In this document: positions 1,268-10,943 of the stretch, in pieces
Layout of the letters: every line of letters starts with the position of its first letter
Position numbering within the stretch: the stretch's first letter is position 1
Assembly: GCA_945912085.1 (NCBI GenBank)
Contig: CAMEBJ010000028.1
Location: forward strand, 1 to 10,943
Source of the DNA: an uncultured Bacteroidales bacterium
Lineage (GTDB): Bacteria > Bacteroidota > Bacteroidia > Bacteroidales > UBA932
DNA: 10,943 nucleotides
Direction: 5' to 3'
The notes under the pieces: generated by a model
What the model was told of the DNA's origin: nothing
The model's input: the letters and a program-made list of their open reading frames with translations, nothing else
Database searches by the model: none
Program-made: the position numbers and the translations under genes

Positions 1268-3454
1268 CTATTTAACCCAAGGTTTGGTCTCGTAGGAGGC
1301 ACCTGTCACTCCGTTTGTGTTGGCGGTGTTGACAGGGAAGTAACCTTTTGACATATCTGTTAAAGAGAACGGCTTGTTCTGCTCTGTGCCGTACTGATTT
1401 TTATTCGATGAAGTGGAATATGTCGGAGAATAACCACTCTGAGAATATGTCCAGGCATTTGCCTGTGATATGTCAACCTTGTCGTCAGCATGGTAAACAT
1501 AGGAGTAATTGGATTTTATGTTGTATGTCCCGTTGTTGCCTCCGTTGTTGTTATATAATCCGAACATATAAGTCTTTGCGAAAGCTGTCCCCAATTCCGA
1601 TACATCAATATATACAATATTGCCGGAGATTTCCGCTGAACCGACATAATATGCTCTTGCAATTACATTCCCGTTTGTATTGATGTTGTAAAGAGTGTTT
1701 CCGGTGATGATAACGGCTGCGTTATCAAGTGGGATATCGTAGCCTGTATTTGCTTTGAAACCGTTCCCCAAATCCATCAGATGTCTGCGAGATATTGCTG
1801 AAGTGGCATTTGAATAGGTTTTCTCAGCATATATTACACAGTTCTTTATGGCTAATTGTTCTATGGATGAATACAGCGTAGATTTTTCCTTCTCAGTATC
1901 ATATTTGTTGATATTCATCACGGAATAATTACCATCAGTACCTGCCATCTTGATAATGCAGTTATCAAAGCTTACAGACTTGATGACATACGCTGGAGTG
2001 GCGGATGCAAAACCAAACACGTTTTTCCGGGCAGTTATTGTACAATCTTCAATAATCGCATAATCAGAGGTTTTAGTCCCAGAGTCCCCACTGGCGACAA
2101 AAAGCCGGTTGGCAGTACCTTCCGCATTGGTTATGTTCAGGTTTTTCAATACAATATTGCCTTTGTCTAGATAAATGGAATTGCCTGCGCTAATTGTAAT
2201 CTGTGTCTGAACATCTTTCTTGCGTCCAATCATAATGCTTCCATTCGCAAGTTTAAGATGTCCTGTTGCAGTGAAATCACCGTCAACGAAAATCAATCCA
2301 CCTTTTTCCAGATTAGTTTTGGTTACTTGGTCGCCTGATAGAAGCTTGCCCTCAGGATATTTGCTTTTGTTGATGGTAATCCCGCCGGCAACTATGTCCT
2401 GCCCGGCATTGTAGATGCTCCAGTAGTCATTTTCATCAACCAGGTTTTCTGCAATATAGCGGTCTCCAGTAATGTTGATGGCGATGTCGTTGATGATTCC
2501 TTCAGTGAGTTTCATTTCCTTAGGAAGACTGATTTTCCTGGTGACTTTCTTGGTTGCGCTCTGGGCGGTCACGGTGAGTGTCGTTCCTTGCGCTTTCTCG
2601 ACAGGAAGTGTGACATACCAGACCGTGTAGGTGTTGCCATTTTCGGTTGATACGGCAGGGAGACCTTCGGCATATTCTGCCGTTACGGTCGGGCTGACTT
2701 GAGTGTCGTTGTATTTCCCTTTGTCTGAGTTATAAACATCAGCATAACCTGACGGGCCGGAGGTGGCGAATTCCCCTTCATATTTTAGATATACCAAAGA
2801 GACCAGATTGTTTTTCTTATCCTTGTTGTCTTGCGAAGTCCACGGAAAACCAATTGAAACACTCTTTAGTTTGTCTCCATTGAAGACATTTTCTCCGTCG
2901 CGAAGAGTGACACGAACAAGGGCAAATAGTCTTTTTAGTTTGAGGTCAGATGAGGATAGGGATGTTTGTCCGCCTGTGACGTTAAGTACCGACTGTCCTA
3001 AGACATAATCTTGAAGCGGGTCGAATGATGTCGCTGTTGGATGCTGTATTGGATCAAGTTTGACATATACAGATTTGCCTGTACTGTTTTTGCTGATATT
3101 GCTTGTTCCTCTGTACGGCATCACGAAATAGTAGTTGTATGCTTTAGCCGTTTCAACTTGATCGTGGCTGTAGGTAAACGTATTTCCTTCTCGTTTGGCC
3201 TCCACAAAGCCGTTGATTTTCCACTCTCCTGTAGTAGCGTCAACCGGAGCCCAAGCCACTGCAATGGACTCTTTCTTGTCCAGTTTGACAGATTCGCTCG
3301 AAGGGTCAAAGAAAGACTTGACCTGGGCATCCTCCGAATCAACTGTAAATGTGTGGGTGATTAGTTTCTGTTCTGAAACGTTTTCCAGAATTTCATTTTT
3401 CTGACATCCTGCTATCGCGAGGAGGGCAGCAGCAAAGAAGACAATCTTTTTCAT
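1268..3454 (-). CDS. Fimbrillin-like / beta-helix surface lipoprotein (728 aa)
   Basis: The start is set at ATG 3454, 16 codons inside the longest frame, because it gives a clean lipoprotein signal (MKKIVFFAAALLAIAGC, Cys17) with GGAGAG about 7-12 bases upstream. QKNE follows the Cys, compatible with outer-membrane export. Residues ~30-330 look like a fimbrillin/Mfa-like beta-sandwich region as found in many Bacteroidales surface lipoproteins: an AVAWAP strand, YYFVMPYRG at 108-116, SFDPLQDYVLG at 143-153, then KRLFALVRVTL at 174-184. Residues ~345-720 carry irregular repeats of short beta strands with Asn and Ile/Val ladders (IVLKNLNITNAEG, YAIIEDCTITA, VSFDNCIIKMAG, LAIKNCVIYAE, AVIITGNTLYN, AEISGNIVYID). 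This suggests a right-handed parallel beta-helix, like the DUF4957/DUF5123 proteins near Bacteroides polysaccharide-lyase PULs. I see no lyase catalytic set, so glycan binding or adhesion is the likely role. The gene is visibly AT-richer than the PL12 and HTCS genes. Its own promoter lies at 3692-3722. Exact function is inferred. Confidence 0.8.
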   Translation of the reverse strand: MKKIVFFAAALLAIAGCQKNEILENVSEQKLITHTFTVDSEDAQVKSFFDPSSESVKLDKKESIAVAWAPVDATTGEWKINGFVEAKREGNTFTYSHDQVETAKAYNYYFVMPYRGTSNISKNSTGKSVYVKLDPIQHPTATSFDPLQDYVLGQSVLNVTGGQTSLSSSDLKLKRLFALVRVTLRDGENVFNGDKLKSVSIGFPWTSQDNKDKKNNLVSLVYLKYEGEFATSGPSGYADVYNSDKGKYNDTQVSPTVTAEYAEGLPAVSTENGNTYTVWYVTLPVEKAQGTTLTVTAQSATKKVTRKISLPKEMKLTEGIINDIAINITGDRYIAENLVDENDYWSIYNAGQDIVAGGITINKSKYPEGKLLSGDQVTKTNLEKGGLIFVDGDFTATGHLKLANGSIMIGRKKDVQTQITISAGNSIYLDKGNIVLKNLNITNAEGTANRLFVASGDSGTKTSDYAIIEDCTITARKNVFGFASATPAYVIKSVSFDNCIIKMAGTDGNYSVMNINKYDTEKEKSTLYSSIEQLAIKNCVIYAEKTYSNATSAISRRHLMDLGNGFKANTGYDIPLDNAAVIITGNTLYNINTNGNVIARAYYVGSAEISGNIVYIDVSELGTAFAKTYMFGLYNNNGGNNGTYNIKSNYSYVYHADDKVDISQANAWTYSQSGYSPTYSTSSNKNQYGTEQNKPFSLTDMSKGYFPVNTANTNGVTGASYETKPWVK

Positions 3455-3455
3455 A

Positions 3456-3633
3456 CTACAACTCTCCACCAAAAATGTCAGACTTCCCGTTGATCTCGTC
3501 ATCTTCAGACATCCAGTCGTTCGGGTTGGATATTACCACCAGAACGGTGTCGTTTACAATTAGTGAAATTACGGAGCAGGCTGGAGACTCATATTTTACC
3601 CCCCCCCGTAAGTAATTTTGTTTTTGTTACCAT
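3456..3633 (-). pseudogene. Small ORF upstream of the lipoprotein, out of frame across a G9 tract (phase-variable or frameshifted)
   Basis: From ATG at 3633-3631 the frame reads MVTKTKLLTGG and enters a run of nine G (minus strand, 3607-3599), then stops after 14 codons as given. With eight or eleven G it would continue as VKYESPACSVISLIVNDT, then VLVVISNPNDWMSEDDEING and KSDIFGGEL, ending at TAG 3458-3456. That is 58 aa in the eight-G form. In the present register no ATG, GTG or TTG precedes this reading between the upstream stop and the tract. The pattern KYESPxxxVIxL...VLVVSxPxDW resembles, from memory, small peptides often encoded just before fimbrillin-like lipoproteins in Bacteroidales, supporting it as real coding sequence. 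The stop is one base from the lipoprotein ATG (3454), so translation could be coupled. It could be a genuine phase switch, a decayed gene, or a homopolymer miscall. Confidence 0.5.
3599..3607. repeat. Homopolymeric C9 tract (G9 on the coding strand)
   Basis: This is the longest G/C homopolymer I notice in the window. It lies inside the small ORF at 3456-3633, after its ninth codon, and its length decides whether the ORF is open. Tracts of this kind are classic sites of slipped-strand mispairing. Confidence 0.85.
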
Positions 3634-3691
3634 AAGAATATCAATTTAGTTGTTTGTTCTGAAATATTGTCAGGCAGTGAATGGTGTCTTT

Positions 3692-3722
3692 CAAAGGTAG
3701 TAAATGTATTGAAAAAATCAAA
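3692..3722 (-). promoter_or_regulatory. Bacteroidetes consensus promoter for the small ORF and lipoprotein gene
   Basis: On the minus strand, TTTG (3722-3719) is followed after 19 bases by TACCTTTG (3699-3692). This matches the Bacteroides -33 TTTG / -7 TAnnTTTG consensus with proper spacing. It begins two bases after the stop codon of the upstream lyase gene (TAA 3726-3724), and transcription would start near 3685. Unlike the two lyase promoters it has both boxes, suggesting expression without a dedicated activator. Confidence 0.65.
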
Positions 3723-3723
3723 A

Positions 3724-5988
3724 TTACAGGTCATATCCCATTACAAACGTCTTTCCAGAGACTGTGACCTGGCATTTCATTGAGGTAGGGGCATCGGCAG
3801 GGGACTGGTCGAGGAACATGGCGGAGATGCCGTCGGTGAGGCCCTGGAAGGCGGAGGCTGCGCCCAGAGGGTGAATGACGGTGATGTAGCGGGAGGCTGC
3901 TCCGGAAGGCTTGGTGGTGCTTACCCTGTAGTATTTCCTGTCAACGCTTACCCCGATTGTGTCAGAATGCTTCGATGTTCCGGTTTCGGTCTTGAAACCA
4001 GTTGTTGCCTCGCAGAAGGTTTTGAAAATCATATTGTTGCCGTCTGCGAAGGTGGTGTGCGCACCGTAGATGCCGCTCTGGTAGCTGTCTGTTGTTACTG
4101 ACTCCAGAGGATCGCACAGGTGGAAACTCAACTCGACCGGGAAGCCTGACCCGCTGCCGAATCCCTCGTCCACTATGACGAGGAACTCCCGATTGACGAA
4201 AAAGACGCTCCTTCTGTGGGTCAGGTCGGTGTAGGATGGGTTCTGGACCACAGCGACATCACAGACGGATGCTCCGGTGCAGAACGCTGTCCCGTTGCCG
4301 GATGCCTTACTTGCCATAGCCATCTGAGTTGCTGAAGCCGCTGCACCAATGGATGTAATCTGCTGAAGGACGGCCTCACCGTAGAGGAGACATTCCCCGA
4401 GCATTCTGCCGTCCGCGATGGTCGCCCCGGAGCGGGTCAGAGTGTTGTGCGAGGATGTGGCCCTGAAACTGTCCCTGACTGCATTGTCCGCAGCGGAGCC
4501 GCCATAGGAGAACACTCCGGCATCCGGAAGGAAACGCCTCCCGTTGCGGTACAGGCCTATGTGGCAGTTGTCCGGCTGGCAGTGCCACCAGTTGTTCGGA
4601 TTGTAGTTGTTCTTCAGAACCAGCATTGTGGAGGCGGAGGTCCAGCCGCTGCGGAACATATACCATCCCGAGGCCGGGTAGGCGGCCATCAGATAATCAG
4701 GCTGGGTTCCCGATTTCCCTTTCGTTGCAAGCCATTCGAATGACTTGTCCTGAGGGAACATTTCGGCGAACTGCTTGAAATTGCGCACAAGATAGGATGA
4801 TGAGACTACCCTTGTGTCGTTGAATTTCTCCACGGAATAGTCGGGGAACATGATGTCCCGGGCGAATTCCGCAGGTTTACGCAGTGTCTCCATAAAAACG
4901 GAAGGAAGGGACGACAGTCTGCCGTTTGCCTGTGCAACGCTGTATATGTCGCGGAAAATGTTGAAGACTGCCAGATGGTAGCTCGGGTCAAGTTCGTTCT
5001 GCATCCCGTCTTCAAGGAACTGCACTTCCAACTCTCCAAGCAGGTCCGAAGTGGCCTCTCTTTCCCATTCGGGAGCCTTGGCGAACTCAGGCATCATTAC
5101 TCCGGCATAGAAGACCGCTTGAACCTCAAACAGCCTGTGGTTGCTGGTGAAAGTGTGGTAGTAATTGGCTCTGATGCTCTCGACGCAGTCGTGGAATGCC
5201 ACAAGAACGGTGGAAAGCCACTGGGGTGTGAAATTCTCCGAGCGGATGAAATACTGGAGCATGTTGATCTGGTCCATTGTCCTGCTTGTGGCCTGCAGGT
5301 CAGTCCACATGTCTCTCACAGGATTGGAAGCCGGGATTGTCCCTCCCGGACAAGGATAGGTCTGAAGCCAGTCTGAATAGACATCTATCCACGCGAGGAT
5401 GTATTTCTCGTCCCTGGTCACCCAATAGGCCCTTGCCTGGGGCTCCATCCACTGATGTCTGTGCTTCTGGATGAGGAACTGCTGCTCGGTCAGTCCGTCG
5501 GGCACGAATTCCCAGTTGATTCCGCCTTTGCCGTCTGAAAATGACCAGTAGCGGGCAAGTCCCGTGACCGGGTCAGTGACTTCCTGGTAGTTCTTGACAT
5601 AGAATCTGTAGCCGCTTTCCTTTGAGGCCTGGTCGGCGATATTCAGTTCACTTTCCGAAATGCTGGTGGTGATAAGGTCCACAAGCGGGTTCCTGACATT
5701 TGTCCTCTCACGGTAATATTCCCTCAGATGCCACGCAGCCTGGTAGTAATCTCCGGCATTCCAAGCCTCCCTGACTTTCTCCAGTCCGGGGTAGTCAAGA
5801 TTCAGAACTTCGCCAAGCCTGGGGTTCACTTCACCATTTTCGTCGCCTGAAGGTGAGTCAGTGATGGTTATGTCAATGTTCCCTCCTGAAGGTCTCTCGC
5901 CGATTTCTTCCCTGCCGCACGAAATGAGGATGGCAGCTATCAGGAAAAAAAGTCCTTTGCGTATGAGTGTGTCATTAAATATGTACAT
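3724..5988 (-). CDS. Heparinase II/III-type polysaccharide lyase, PL12-like lipoprotein (754 aa)
   Basis: Predicted to cleave uronic-acid polysaccharides (heparin/heparan sulfate type) by beta-elimination. The N-terminus is a lipoprotein signal (GLFFLIAAILISC, Cys24) followed by GREE, so it is probably outer-membrane anchored. Residues ~55-400 form the helical (alpha/alpha) toroid region (LNLDYPGLEKVR at 62-73, QKHRHQWMEPQARAY at 174-188). Residues ~430-754 form the beta-sandwich heparinase II/III domain, with WWHCQPDNCHIGLY at 467-480, GRRFLPDAGVFSYGG at 483-497 and FRATSSHNTLT at 508-518. Asn283 (SNHRLFE), Tyr337 (DPSYH) and His469 (WHCQPDN) fit the catalytic Asn/Tyr/His of heparinase III (Asn240, Tyr294, His424 in the Pedobacter enzyme, from memory). 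The Asn-Tyr gap is 54 in both and the Tyr-His gap is 132 versus 130. All three are present, so the enzyme should be active. It is transcribed divergently from the HTCS, and a paralogue lies beyond the HTCS. PL12 is the best fit; another Hepar_II_III lyase family with a different uronate substrate remains possible. Confidence 0.88.
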   Translation of the reverse strand: MYIFNDTLIRKGLFFLIAAILISCGREEIGERPSGGNIDITITDSPSGDENGEVNPRLGEVLNLDYPGLEKVREAWNAGDYYQAAWHLREYYRERTNVRNPLVDLITTSISESELNIADQASKESGYRFYVKNYQEVTDPVTGLARYWSFSDGKGGINWEFVPDGLTEQQFLIQKHRHQWMEPQARAYWVTRDEKYILAWIDVYSDWLQTYPCPGGTIPASNPVRDMWTDLQATSRTMDQINMLQYFIRSENFTPQWLSTVLVAFHDCVESIRANYYHTFTSNHRLFEVQAVFYAGVMMPEFAKAPEWEREATSDLLGELEVQFLEDGMQNELDPSYHLAVFNIFRDIYSVAQANGRLSSLPSVFMETLRKPAEFARDIMFPDYSVEKFNDTRVVSSSYLVRNFKQFAEMFPQDKSFEWLATKGKSGTQPDYLMAAYPASGWYMFRSGWTSASTMLVLKNNYNPNNWWHCQPDNCHIGLYRNGRRFLPDAGVFSYGGSAADNAVRDSFRATSSHNTLTRSGATIADGRMLGECLLYGEAVLQQITSIGAAASATQMAMASKASGNGTAFCTGASVCDVAVVQNPSYTDLTHRRSVFFVNREFLVIVDEGFGSGSGFPVELSFHLCDPLESVTTDSYQSGIYGAHTTFADGNNMIFKTFCEATTGFKTETGTSKHSDTIGVSVDRKYYRVSTTKPSGAASRYITVIHPLGAASAFQGLTDGISAMFLDQSPADAPTSMKCQVTVSGKTFVMGYDL

Positions 5989-6011
5989 ATTTTGTCTTGT
6001 TGGTCAGCGTG

Positions 6012-6019
6012 CAAATATA
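6012..6019 (-). promoter_or_regulatory. -7 box of the PL12-like lyase promoter
   Basis: TATATTTG on the minus strand (6019-6012) fits TAnnTTTG and lies 23 bases before the ATG at 5988, giving a very short leader. No TTTG lies 19-21 bases upstream, where GGCGGGAAAG is found. A missing -33 box suits a promoter that needs an activator, presumably the HTCS encoded next door. Confidence 0.5.
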
Positions 6020-6055
6020 AATTGAATTAAAACATCTTTCCCGCCATTTTTGTAG

Positions 6056-6112
6056 TTGACATTTTCAGTATTGTTGAATATTGCACATATTGACAGGTGA
6101 AAATGTCAATAT
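6056..6112. promoter_or_regulatory. Nested inverted repeats in the divergent lyase/HTCS control region (candidate operator)
   Basis: TTGACATTTTCA (6056-6067) is perfectly complementary to TGAAAATGTCAA (6098-6109); arm centres are 42 bp apart, about four helical turns. A second inverted repeat overlaps it: ATATTGACA (6087-6095) with TGTCAATAT (6104-6112), spacer 8 bp. Together they give three TTGACA half-sites. The block lies 37 or more bases upstream of the lyase -7 box and just ahead of the HTCS gene, a natural place for a regulator to bind. That the HTCS itself binds it is inference. Confidence 0.55.
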
Positions 6113-6164
6113 TTTGTTGCTCTTCTCAATATAATTGTCTAAATTGGAGCACAATTTTGAAATT

Positions 6165-9100
6165 ATGTTCACTATTCTGCTTGTCTGTGTTCTTTTGACG
6201 GTTGCGGCCTGCCCTGTTGATGCCGCAAATGACGGTCAAATCCGTTTCTCCAATCTTTCAATAGATGACGGTTTGTCGCAGAACACGGTTTTTTCCATCT
6301 GTCAGGACGCTGAAGGCTACATCTGGTTTGCGACCCTTGAGGGACTGAACCGTTTCGACGGCAACTCTTTCACGGTTTTCCTTCACGACGAGAACGATCC
6401 CAGAAGTCTCCCTGACAACATTATCCACACTTTGTTCCTTGATTCACAGGGGAACCTCTGGATTGGAACAGAATCGTCACTTGTGCGGTGGAACCGGAGG
6501 ATGGAGAGGTTTGACAATTTTTCTGCAGGCTCTCCCGTCATGTCGGTTGCGGAGGTTTCTGTGCAGAGGTTCCTTGTCGGGACTGAGAAGGGGCTGAGAT
6601 GTTTTGACGCTGAGAAGGACTGTTTCACTGACAATCTTCCAGAAAACACGGCCAGGCTGAGGGTAAAGGCGATGACAAGACATTCTGATTCAATATATAT
6701 AGGAAGTGTCGGTGAGGGGCTTTTTGTATATTCCATTTCAGGCGGGGAGATGATCAGGGTGCCGGCCTATTCCGGAAACAGTACAATCCAGACAATATTT
6801 GTCCAAAATGGAAACCTGGTCTGGTTCGGGACGGAGGGAGAAGGACTTTTCTGTCTGAATCTTGAAGATGGAGGTCTTCGCAATTTCAGGTCGGGGATGT
6901 CCCCCGGAGGGATCGGCTCCAATTTTGTCCGCTCCATCGCATCCGACACGAATGGCAGAATCTGGGTTGGGACTTTCAACAGCCTTGACATATATGACAG
7001 CGCGACAGACAGTTTCGAGTGTTACCGGAGCGACCCTTTCCGTGAGGGTACGATCTCCAGAAATTCTGTCAGATGTATCCTGAGGGACAATCAGGGCGGG
7101 ATGTGGCTCGGGACTTATTTCGGAGGAGTCGATTACTGGCACCCGCTCCGCAGCCGTTTCGAGAACATCAGACGGACCCCCGGGGCAAATTCCCTGAATG
7201 ATGACATAGTGAACTGCATCACGCCTGCTCCAGACGGGGTTCTGTGGATAGGAACCAACAACGGCGGTCTGAACAGCTACGACCCTGCCACGGGAAGATT
7301 CCACAATTTCGGGACCCATCCCGCAAATCGTGCAGACGGTCTGGAGTCAAACGACATCAAGGCCATTCACATAGATTCAGCCACTTCGGACATCTACATC
7401 GGGGCACACGCGGGGGGACTCTGCGTCCTGCCTGCACATTCCGGAACCATCAGACAATGCAAATTCAATGGTGAAACAGGCATAGCCCCGCTGGACATCT
7501 ATTCCATAATAGAGGAATCTCCCGGGTTGCTCTGGATAGGTTCGCTTCAGGGGCTGTTTTCCTACAGGACTTCCAATGGAGAACTTCGCAATTATCCCAC
7601 ATCAGGTGAAGATAGTGACAATCTGAGAATCAGGGCCTTGATGAAAGACAGCAGGGGATGGCTATGGATAGGCGGCGAGAATTATATGGAAATACGTCAG
7701 ATGAATGACGGCCGTCTGCTTCAGGTGAATCCCGGCTGCGATGAACTCTCCGGCCTGTCGTTTATTCTGGGATTCCACGAAAGCTCTTCCGGCATTGTCT
7801 GGATAGCGACCAGAAACGGACTTTTTGCCTATAGCCCGAAGGAGAACACCCTGAAAAGGTACACTGTCGCCTCAGGATTGCCGAGCAACGTAATCAACGG
7901 AATCGAGGAAGATTCCTACGGCAGGCTCTGGCTCAGTACGGACAACGGCTTGAGCTGCCACAATCCCTATTCCGGAGTTTTCCGGAATTTCACTGTGAAG
8001 GACGGCCTGCCGAGCCGGCAGTTCAGTATGGGGTCGCATTGCAGGCTCGATTCCGGGAGGATGTATTTCGGAGGAATCAGGGGCATCACCACTTTCATTC
8101 CGGAGCGCGTTACGGACAACCCTTATTCCCCGGCTCCGATCCTGTCCGGGTTCAGGGTTTTCAATGACAGAATTCTCCCGGGTGACGGGAGCGGCATCCT
8201 GAAAGAGAGTGTTGCATCCACAGGAAGAATCATCCTCAGGCACGACTGCAATTCATTCTCGGTGGATTTCACTGTCAATGACTTCATTGCAGGAGGGCAC
8301 AGCACCTTCTCCCGGAGACTTGTCGGCTTTGAGGAGGACTGGACTGCCCCGTCTTCCTCAAGGACTGCTTCTTACTCAAACCTTCCTCCGGGAAAGTACC
8401 GTTTCGAGGTGGTCTCTGCCAACAATGACGGAAAATGGAACACGGATCCTACGGTTTTGGAAATATGGATCAGGCCCGCCTGGCATCAGCTTTTCTGGGT
8501 TCGTGCCCTTTTCGTGCTTGCCGGCCTTGCCCTTGTGGTCTGGAGCGTGTGGTTCTATATCGGCAAGAAGTCCGTGCAGAACCGTCTTGAACTGGAGAAG
8601 AAGGACAGGGAACATCAGGAGGAAATCAGTCAGATGAAGATGCGCTTCTTCATCAATATTTCCCACGAACTCAGGTCTCCTCTGATGTTGATTCTCAATC
8701 CGGTTCAGGAGATGCTCGACAGAGTTTCCGACATCTGGACCCGCAAGCAGCTCAAATATGTCCAGCGCAATGCCCAGAGGCTTCTCCACCTTGTGAATCA
8801 GCTTATGGACTACCGCCGGGCTGAACTCGGGGTTTTCAAATTGAGTGTCAAGCCGGAGGACATCAACAGGATTGTCAGGGAGAATTTCTCCTATTACGAG
8901 ACCCTTGCCTCCAGCAAGAAACTGAAATATTCACTCATCTCGCACATCCCTGAAAAGACTGAGGTCCTTGTGGACGGCCAGTACATTGAACTGATACTCA
9001 ACAATCTGCTCTCCAATGCATTCAAGTACACTGACAAAGGTTCGATCACAGTCACTGCAAGCCTCTCCGAGGGCAGATTCATTCTGGAGGTAGCGGACAC

Positions 9101-10196
9101 CGGTGCCGGAATCCCGCTGGACCGGCAGGACAAGATTTTCGAGAGGTTCTACCAGTTGGAGAACAGCCACATAGGCAGTGGCATAGGTCTTTCCCTCGTG
9201 CAACGACTTGCCGAACTGCATCATGCGACCCTGGAATTGGAAAGCGAGGAGGGAAAAGGATCCCGATTCATCGTGAGCATCCCTCAGGAGAGGTCGGCAT
9301 ATTCTCCTGATGAGCTGTCGGCCGGTACTGCCGATGCTCCTCACACCACAAACTCCAGAGAGATGTATATTCTTGACAGTCAAGAGACTCATGAAGAAAC
9401 TCAGGGCACTCAGACTGTCCCGGACGGATCCCGTCCCAAAATTCTGGTCGTGGAAGATGAGGAGGACATTCGCGCCTATATGGAGACATCCCTGTCATCT
9501 TCATTCCAAATCCGCTGTGCCCCGGACGGTGCCCGTGCCCTGGAGATGGTCGGGGAAGATTGTCCGGATATGGTTATTACGGATATGATGATGCCTGTGA
9601 TGGACGGAATGAAACTTTGTGCCCGTCTGAAACAGGACAGCAGTACAAGCCACATTCCAGTCATTATGCTTTCCGCCAAGGCTGACGGACAGGATCAACT
9701 GAAGGCTCTGAACAGTGGAGCTGACGACTTCCTGACCAAACCTTTCTCGATGACAATGCTGAAGGCGAAAATCCGCAATATGCTACGCACGAGGATGATA
9801 ATCGAGGACAAAGCTACCCGCAGCACCGCATTCTCGCCGGAAAAGGCGGCACTGAATGCTATGGATGAGGAGATTGTCCGCAAGGCGGTGTCCGTAGTTG
9901 AACGGAATATGGACAATGTGGAATTTTCCACTGATGAGTTCGCCCGCCAGATGAATATGAGCCGTTCCAATCTCCATCTCAAACTGAAGTCAATCACGGG
10001 AGATTCCGCCCTGGGATTCATTTACAAAGTCCGGTTCAGGGAGGCTTGCCGCCTGTTGGAGGACGGGCGTTACAGTGTGTCCGAGATCAGCGATATGGTA
10101 GGGTTCAACACTCCTTCCTATTTCGCCACCTGTTTCAAGAAGCATATTGGCTGCCTGCCGACAGAATGGACGAAACGGAACAAAATTGAAAAATGA
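6165..10196 (+). CDS. Hybrid two-component system sensor/regulator (HTCS, 1343 aa)
   Basis: A single-protein glycan sensor and transcription activator of Bacteroidetes PULs. ATG 6165 is preferred over an in-frame TTG at 6135 because it directly begins a signal peptide (MFTILLVCVLLTVAACPVDA). Residues ~25-650 are a periplasmic Reg_prop double propeller with many G-x-x-W-I/F-G/A-T repeats (GYIWFATLEGLNRFDG at 51-66, GVLWIGTNNGGLNSYD at 358-373, GRLWLSTDNGL at 586-596). Residues ~695-770 are a Y_Y_Y domain, then a membrane segment at ~775-799. The kinase has FFINISHELRSPL (His834), an N box with Asn951, DTGAGIP at 978-984 and GSGIGLS at 1004-1010. The receiver (~1091-1210) has Glu1097/Asp1098, phospho-acceptor Asp1140, Ser1170 and Lys1192. 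The AraC-type helix-turn-helix output is at ~1255-1340. Length and domain order are normal for the family, and all phosphotransfer residues are present. In Bacteroides thetaiotaomicron the heparin-PUL HTCS BT4663 also adjoins a PL12 gene (from memory), so a heparan-derived oligosaccharide ligand is a reasonable inference. Confidence 0.95.
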   Translation: MFTILLVCVLLTVAACPVDAANDGQIRFSNLSIDDGLSQNTVFSICQDAEGYIWFATLEGLNRFDGNSFTVFLHDENDPRSLPDNIIHTLFLDSQGNLWIGTESSLVRWNRRMERFDNFSAGSPVMSVAEVSVQRFLVGTEKGLRCFDAEKDCFTDNLPENTARLRVKAMTRHSDSIYIGSVGEGLFVYSISGGEMIRVPAYSGNSTIQTIFVQNGNLVWFGTEGEGLFCLNLEDGGLRNFRSGMSPGGIGSNFVRSIASDTNGRIWVGTFNSLDIYDSATDSFECYRSDPFREGTISRNSVRCILRDNQGGMWLGTYFGGVDYWHPLRSRFENIRRTPGANSLNDDIVNCITPAPDGVLWIGTNNGGLNSYDPATGRFHNFGTHPANRADGLESNDIKAIHIDSATSDIYIGAHAGGLCVLPAHSGTIRQCKFNGETGIAPLDIYSIIEESPGLLWIGSLQGLFSYRTSNGELRNYPTSGEDSDNLRIRALMKDSRGWLWIGGENYMEIRQMNDGRLLQVNPGCDELSGLSFILGFHESSSGIVWIATRNGLFAYSPKENTLKRYTVASGLPSNVINGIEEDSYGRLWLSTDNGLSCHNPYSGVFRNFTVKDGLPSRQFSMGSHCRLDSGRMYFGGIRGITTFIPERVTDNPYSPAPILSGFRVFNDRILPGDGSGILKESVASTGRIILRHDCNSFSVDFTVNDFIAGGHSTFSRRLVGFEEDWTAPSSSRTASYSNLPPGKYRFEVVSANNDGKWNTDPTVLEIWIRPAWHQLFWVRALFVLAGLALVVWSVWFYIGKKSVQNRLELEKKDREHQEEISQMKMRFFINISHELRSPLMLILNPVQEMLDRVSDIWTRKQLKYVQRNAQRLLHLVNQLMDYRRAELGVFKLSVKPEDINRIVRENFSYYETLASSKKLKYSLISHIPEKTEVLVDGQYIELILNNLLSNAFKYTDKGSITVTASLSEGRFILEVADTGAGIPLDRQDKIFERFYQLENSHIGSGIGLSLVQRLAELHHATLELESEEGKGSRFIVSIPQERSAYSPDELSAGTADAPHTTNSREMYILDSQETHEETQGTQTVPDGSRPKILVVEDEEDIRAYMETSLSSSFQIRCAPDGARALEMVGEDCPDMVITDMMMPVMDGMKLCARLKQDSSTSHIPVIMLSAKADGQDQLKALNSGADDFLTKPFSMTMLKAKIRNMLRTRMIIEDKATRSTAFSPEKAALNAMDEEIVRKAVSVVERNMDNVEFSTDEFARQMNMSRSNLHLKLKSITGDSALGFIYKVRFREACRLLEDGRYSVSEISDMVGFNTPSYFATCFKKHIGCLPTEWTKRNKIEK

Positions 10197-10229
10197 TTGT
10201 ACAAATTTGAAGAAAGAAACACAGGATTT

Positions 10230-10260
10230 GCCGTGAATGGAACATAATAGGAATCACGGC
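10230..10260. promoter_or_regulatory. Inverted repeat upstream of the second lyase promoter (candidate operator)
   Basis: GCCGTGA (10230-10236) and TCACGGC (10254-10260) are perfect inverted repeats with a 17-bp spacer, flanked by CAGG (10222-10225) and CCTG (10260-10263). The centre lies about 33 bases before the -7 box at 10275, where a -33 box would normally be. It begins 34 bases after the HTCS stop. No T-run follows it, which argues against a terminator and for an activator site. Confidence 0.45.
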
Positions 10261-10274
10261 CTGTCCATATTCAG

Positions 10275-10282
10275 TAATTTTG
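10275..10282 (+). promoter_or_regulatory. -7 box of the second PL12-like gene
   Basis: TAATTTTG fits the Bacteroidetes TAnnTTTG consensus and lies 64 bases before the ATG at 10347. No TTTG is seen 19-21 bases upstream, so activation is probably needed. Transcription would start near 10289, inside a TTGACAGGT (10288-10296) that also occurs in the divergent control region at 6090-6098. Confidence 0.5.
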
Positions 10283-10346
10283 CATTGTTGACAGGTAGTC
10301 TCCGACTCTGTCCGACACACTGATTGAAAACACTAAGACAACTGAT

Positions 10347-10943
10347 ATGAACAAATTTGCAATCTCTATTCTGACCCTGGGCCTGGCATTGTCCGCAGCC
10401 TGTTCGCCCGATCAGAAAGAACATCTTTCCAAAGATGGGAACATCGACCGTTACCTTCCTCAGGATGAAACCGGTGAAGAGGGCGCGGCAGCGGTCAGCC
10501 GTGAGGTTTTTGATCTTCTGAACCTGGATTATCCCGGCCTTGAGAATGTGAAGTCAGCCCTGGAAGAGAGGGACATGGTGAGTGCCGCAAAGAATCTTCT
10601 GGACTACTGGCGCACCCGCAGCGGACTTTACAATCCGGATGTTGACCTCATTACCACAACCTGTACCGCTTCCGAGAAGAACATTGCCGACCAGGCACTC
10701 GAGTACCGTTTTTATGTCCGCAATTTTGCGGAGAAGACCGATGCGGCGACAGGTCTTGACATTTATCATTCTTTCGGTTCGGCCGGAAAAATCGACTGGG
10801 AATATGTTCCAGAGGGGGTGACCAGCCAGGAATTCCGCTATCAGAAGCACCGCCACCAATGGATGGAACCTCAGGCGAAGGCCTATCGCACAACCGGCAA
10901 CGAGGCCTATTTCAAAAACTGGGTGGAAGTTTACGGCAGTTGG
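10347..10943 (+). CDS. Second heparinase II/III-type (PL12-like) lipoprotein, N-terminal 199 residues, cut by window end
   Basis: The frame opens at ATG 10347 and runs without a stop to the last base (exactly 199 codons). It starts with a lipoprotein signal, MNKFAISILTLGLALSAAC, with Cys19 followed by SPDQKE. From LLNLDYPGLENVKSAL onward it aligns with residues 61-207 of the lyase at 3724-5988, sharing NPxVDLITT, NIADQA, YRFYV and QKHRHQWMEPQA. By eye about 80 of some 143 aligned positions are identical, so the two are paralogues. This part is the helical toroid of the Hepar_II_III_N region; the catalytic Asn, Tyr and His lie beyond the edge, so activity cannot be judged. It is co-oriented with the HTCS but 150 bases downstream with its own -7 box, suggesting separate, HTCS-activated transcription. 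It may head an operon continuing to the right. Confidence 0.85.
   Translation, partial: MNKFAISILTLGLALSAACSPDQKEHLSKDGNIDRYLPQDETGEEGAAAVSREVFDLLNLDYPGLENVKSALEERDMVSAAKNLLDYWRTRSGLYNPDVDLITTTCTASEKNIADQALEYRFYVRNFAEKTDAATGLDIYHSFGSAGKIDWEYVPEGVTSQEFRYQKHRHQWMEPQAKAYRTTGNEAYFKNWVEVYGSW

Follow-up and report, generated by a model that had tools for sequence, protein, structure and literature searches.

The window, by which we mean the whole stretch of 10,943 nucleotides analysed here, carries on its minus strand a run of nine G that sits within a small open reading frame (ORF), near its first codons, ahead of a gene whose product is, by its signal peptide, a probable surface lipoprotein. The features of the window, with coordinates and strand, are:

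3454..1268, minus strand: lipoprotein of 728 amino acids with a signal peptide ending in LAIAGC (lipobox recognized by eye)
3607-3599, minus strand: G9 tract, exactly nine G as read from the window sequence
3633..3589, minus strand: small ORF as assembled, with ATG at 3633, 14 codons and TGA at 3591-3589
3599..3456, minus strand: remainder of the small-protein gene, reading VKYESPACSV...GGEL and then TAG at 3458-3456, in a frame that differs from that of ATG 3633 as assembled
3722..3692, minus strand: candidate Bacteroidetes-type promoter by sequence reading, with TTTG at 3722-3719, a spacing of 19 nt and TACCTTTG at 3699-3692
3724..5988, minus strand: upstream neighbour, a HepC-like protein of the heparinase II/III family (518.7 bits, below the NCBI equivalog cut-off of 600)
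6135..10196, plus strand: hybrid two-component regulator, a neighbour given for context
10347..10943, plus strand: another gene of the heparinase II/III family, truncated at the window end and given for context

Our reading of these frames agrees with the first-pass annotation, made by a model from the sequence, which had noted a tract of nine G within 3456-3633 and had given the lipoprotein 728 residues. It had also ended the ORF from ATG 3633 after 14 codons, and it had calculated that with eight G this ORF would become one of 58 codons whose stop lies one base ahead of the lipoprotein ATG at 3454; the frame arithmetic is right and both the TGA and the TAG are found where this requires. From position 3599 the frame after the tract is open to the TAG at 3458-3456, and this part of the small-protein gene bears no further damage.

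Upstream of the small ORF, the distance from the TTTG of the candidate promoter to the G9 tract is 84 nt. The accessible text of one study gives the Bacteroidetes promoter consensus as TAnnTTTG with the TTTG near -33 (PMC7366714). A sigma-70 promoter was considered and rejected as the wrong promoter type for the phylum, the scan of positions 3400-3800 having given four 9-of-12 matches against 0.8 expected. The RNA fold of the window leader is no better than those of shuffled sequences (z 0.24; 113 of 200 shuffles at least as good), and Rfam returned zero families in the seven loci examined.

The lipoprotein matches no Pfam family at E <= 0.001, and relatives of it occur in four of 60 other genomes, the best with 27% identity over part of its length. 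From 3724 to 10943 the two heparinase II/III genes flank the hybrid two-component regulator in an arrangement that resembles a glycosaminoglycan-use locus, and the lipoprotein may belong to such a locus. Heparinase relatives were found at eight loci in named genomes, of which only L031 has a match to the peptide family described below; the match lies some 3 kb away from the heparinase, and no run of eight accompanies it. By eye, the long non-coding stretch at the left end of the window shows recurrent short palindromes of the form CATTCCCGGCT...CCGGGAAT (120-800), together with an inverted repeat some 20 nt long (881-900 and 1012-1031).

Judged by profile matches, the frame after the tract is that of a genuine peptide of a recurrent small-protein family. 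The first-pass annotation had remarked that this frame reads like a real peptide, and profiles built without the window bear it out. With a profile of 87 unique relatives, gathered with Y and P required of every member, the window segment ranked first of 315 (E 7e-7); with a profile of 25 relatives, the window peptide was the sole match in its own genome at E <= 0.001 (E 1.3e-5). Single-sequence searches found peptide relatives in the genus at no better than E 0.056, and no close relative of the window locus was found. At the loose threshold of E 0.5, the first profile, made from four relatives and the window's own segment, matched 261 of 400 genus genomes, among them the window's own. The 89 loci examined here consist of 29 of the 30 fetched by that first profile search, the window among them, and the next 60 places by E-value; L042, the locus of which is cut at a contig end, was omitted from the family table, and near-copies are present among the 89 (for example L124/L125, L032/L037 and L106/L107/L126). 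The family consensus is an M and about ten residues, followed by Y-x-[S/A]-P-x3-V, by E-G-[VI]-[LI]-C-x-S and by a tail of acidic character. The window copy retains the Y-E-S-P, the V and the S, and the C is missing. Neither Pfam nor NCBIfam has a model that matches the window peptide or 25 other members. Across the order, the family was detected in five of 198 genomes at E 0.001, two of the five being the window's own genome and a second genome from its genus; a member from another taxonomic family (L224) has a G8 upstream, at -195.

An intact ORF that starts with ATG and contains the motif is present in every one of the 88 family loci other than the window. The window as assembled departs from this family trait, since the frame after the tract has no ATG, GTG or TTG between the upstream stop and the KYESP motif, and with 88 other loci intact the broken state accompanies the tract. 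The frame reading and the profile matches together show that a change of one unit in the tract opens or closes a real gene. In 83 of the 89 loci the next gene downstream encodes a lipoprotein, 78 of them recognized by a regular expression for a lipobox-like motif, a test that nine of 56 control ORFs also pass, and five by eye (L034, L056, L058, L118 and L126). The next gene is of another kind in L035 and L128, and no ORF was seen in the available downstream stretch of L099, L112, L123 and L149. The median gap between peptide and lipoprotein is 13 nt over the 78 motif-positive loci; in the window it is 1 nt.

Long runs of G or C are concentrated in the leaders of this family. Within the leader and peptide ORF of the 89 loci (37 kb), runs of at least nine occur at six loci including the window; the five loci other than the window compare with 0.07 expected (Poisson P 1.7e-8), although our P values are too small because near-copies were treated as independent and the tracts are a non-random sample. 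In the 3 kb loci, the leader and peptide ORF sequence (12.3 kb) has seven runs of at least eight, the window's included, whereas the other coding sequence (70.6 kb) has one and the other spacer (4.4 kb) none; these loci were picked by the peptide and not by the run, the window itself excepted. The position of these tracts is a different matter. Only in two loci does a tract lie within the peptide ORF: the G9 of the window puts the peptide out of frame, and a G8 just before KYLAP in L047, at a place similar to that of the window tract, is in frame. The eight other leader G-tracts lie 102-213 nt upstream of the matched part of the peptide, outside the peptide ORF, and are thus unable to toggle the peptide by frame; their upstream position is the main result against a simple frame-switch reading. 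A TAnnTTTG motif ends 56-84 nt upstream of the tract in six of the ten G-run loci, window included, compared with 28 of 866 control points. We also observed that a short upstream ORF started by ATG crosses the tract in seven of eight leaders, compared with 45% of control points (P 0.02), and that these upstream ORFs share no sequence; the leaders concerned are those of L033, L034, L059, L098, L124, L141 and L148.

The rest of the genome gives these runs their context. The window's own genome, that of a probable gut bacterium, is a draft of 1,564,446 bases in 272 contigs, 61% complete, in which GGGGGGGG has three matches in two tracts, against about 47 expected from the base composition of the window alone. 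The window tract is its only run of nine, and there are two runs of at least eight in 1.56 Mb. As in contingency loci, the tract is a homopolymer that is long enough to slip and has few counterparts in the rest of the genome. Judged against the window alone, a G8 is unremarkable, 35 of 200 shuffles having at least as many matches. The genome's other G8 (L162, 6459-6466, in G000:C51) is in frame and falls in the signal-peptide part of an intact DUF3575 protein. Two other loci recall it, L172 with a G9 at a similar place and L212 with a G9 inside the DUF3575 domain. Among 101 genomes of the genus (about 219 Mb), a nine-base run of G or C has 432 matches, or 1.98 per Mb, and is present in 81 genomes. 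We classed 94 tracts, a non-random sample made up of the window's, two G8 tracts (L160 and L162) and 91 among the places listed: 33 are in frame in an ORF of at least 150 codons, 14 apparently out of frame and 47 in spacer or short frames, and control runs of 3-4 gave 411, 20 and 106, respectively. In frames of at least 150 codons, 14 of 47 tracts are thus out of frame as against 20 of 431 controls (Fisher P 4e-7), on labels that are rough, several of the 14 looking like artefacts of short or overlapping frames.

Several of these runs lie in genes of defined kinds. In L064 (G077), the frame changes around a G9 at 1501 between a carboxypeptidase-regulatory part, which scores just below the Pfam cut-off, and the part with the TonB Plug, and this locus was classed in frame by the labels although its domains occupy two frames. 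In L164 (G092), with a G9 at 1201, both domains are in one frame and a start like that of a signal peptide, without a Pfam match, is in another. Both are SusC-type receptor genes in which the frame differs between the N-terminal part and the rest at the G9. A G9 is in frame in the DUF3575 proteins of L172 and L212, in a type I restriction specificity subunit HsdS (L066) and in a hexapeptide acyltransferase (L076). Surface, glycan-modifying and restriction-specificity genes are the usual classes of contingency loci, and by analogy the runs of the genus outside the leaders appear to resemble slippage contingency loci. In 12 of 30 loci (L062-L091, by eye) G9 is followed by TA, compared with 1/12 assumed for chance.

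A tract length of eight in one copy and nine in another was found twice between paralogues inside one genome, in G133 and G159. These differences are between paralogous copies and are distinct from variation within a population. The peptide-lipoprotein paralogues of G133 (L152 at 12075 and L153 at 44, with eight and nine G) are 86.7% similar over 1.3 kb from the tract on and differ before the G run, a possible recombination point. In G159:C79 (L157, 4934-5050 and 6554-6671) each of two tandem lipoprotein cassettes is preceded by a promoter motif that is flanked by a C run and a G run some 100 nt apart; the arms of the first run pair make up a perfect inverted repeat, an arrangement resembling that of an invertible promoter. 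DNA inversion at the window was rejected: paired arms with G or C runs of at least six were sought in the window and in L001-L151, and only L059 had such arms.

The explanation we favour, to which we give about an even chance, is that the G9 would be a slippage contingency tract in the small-protein gene, caught in the OFF state. Replication slippage would add or remove one G and bring the peptide into or out of frame, and the assembled genome would represent the OFF state. The peptide gene and the lipoprotein are probably carried on one transcript, and with the peptide closed fewer ribosomes would reach the lipoprotein start and the message may be open to decay. Since the stop and the ATG nearly touch, closure of the peptide could change lipoprotein output through lost coupling or decay. 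The phase switch proposed in the first-pass annotation is supported in part, in that the peptide belongs to a real family ahead of lipoproteins, tract length decides whether the peptide is open, and runs in the genus cluster in the leaders and occur in surface and restriction genes; it does not extend to the eight leader tracts outside the ORF.

Other explanations have to be set beside the slippage switch. The foremost of them, though an improbable one, is an error in the consensus, by which the true tract would have another length and the peptide would be intact as in its relatives. Each of the 88 other members is indeed intact, homopolymers are the usual sites of miscalls and this genome is a fragmented draft; nevertheless, nine bases is short for a run to cause short-read errors, and a miscall leaves the clustering of runs in these leaders unexplained. 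Next in rank, and likewise improbable, is a one-way frameshift, in which the peptide gene would have been lost recently and the tract would mark merely the break site. The gene after the tract remains undamaged and its frame runs uninterrupted up to the stop, one base ahead of the lipoprotein, and the enrichment of tracts at this type of locus suggests that they are maintained, both of which speak against such a loss, even if G runs are general mutation hot spots and the other state is seen in no second genome, the window being one sequence.

The tracts that lie outside the ORF in other leaders suggest a further explanation, less probable again, in which the tract would act through leader length, structure or recombination and not through the peptide frame, its overlap with the ORF in the window being due to chance. 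The placing of TAnnTTTG upstream of the tracts is consistent with this, as are the copies in G133, alike from the tract onward and different before it, and the locus in G159, where the tract and a C run form an inverted repeat around the promoter. The window itself, however, has no paired G/C-run arms among those with runs of at least six that were sought, its leader folds like shuffled sequence, and Rfam gave nothing in the seven loci. Slippage of the polymerase or the ribosome at the G run, which would yield some peptide from the nine-G template with the DNA unchanged, we consider very improbable: G runs can provoke such slippage and the gene after the tract is undamaged, but the 88 other members are encoded in frame, and the family therefore shows no need for it.

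Beyond the window, we propose more tentatively, as a reading that falls somewhat short of an even chance, that this large Bacteroidales genus may have a contingency repertoire of G/C-run slippage alongside the DNA inversion known in the order. Such a repertoire would act on TonB/SusC receptors, DUF3575 proteins and HsdS, among other targets, and would be densest in the leaders of operons that pair a conserved small Y-x-[S/A]-P peptide with a surface lipoprotein. At the window locus the tract would have entered the peptide gene and would switch it by frame. Phase variation in gut Bacteroidales has been studied mostly as DNA inversions, which are detected by flipped reads. If homopolymer slippage also governs surface lipoproteins and receptors, such variation has been overlooked, and accurate metagenomic reads would allow it to be counted immediately. 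A further outcome is a small-protein family, so far uncatalogued, that is encoded ahead of surface lipoproteins.

Contingency loci with G or C runs that are switched by slipped-strand mispairing are found in Neisseria, Campylobacter and Helicobacter. Simple-sequence contingency loci are treated in a review that, in its accessible part, describes phase variation in Bacteroides by inversions and names no homopolymer case for Bacteroidales (PMC11868660). The accessible part of another source mentions slippage solely through a reference on Gardnerella (PMC11388281), and a search by title and abstract found no homopolymer phase variation in Bacteroidales, most subscription papers lying beyond its scope, which leaves absence unproven. 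The window resembles the slipped-strand loci in having a G9 near a gene start that is out of frame as assembled, and the genus does so in having runs also in surface, glycan-modifying and restriction-specificity genes. It differs from them in that tracts are few per genome, most of the family's tracts are located in leaders and not in the ORF, switching would act on the ORF of a small protein preceding the lipoprotein and not on the lipoprotein itself, and the window is known from one assembled sequence of one genome. With the invertible promoters of Bacteroides, which belong to the same order, it shares the control of surface genes, and the G159 locus has a promoter between inverted C-run and G-run arms; unlike these, the window has neither paired arms with G/C runs of at least six nor a recombinase gene. 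Short ORFs have been noted in the long 5' UTRs of B. thetaiotaomicron, according to the accessible text of PMC7366714. Like leader peptides and upstream ORFs with translational coupling, the small ORF of the window has its stop one base before the next start, but unlike them its peptide is conserved as a family, and it therefore probably also acts as a protein.
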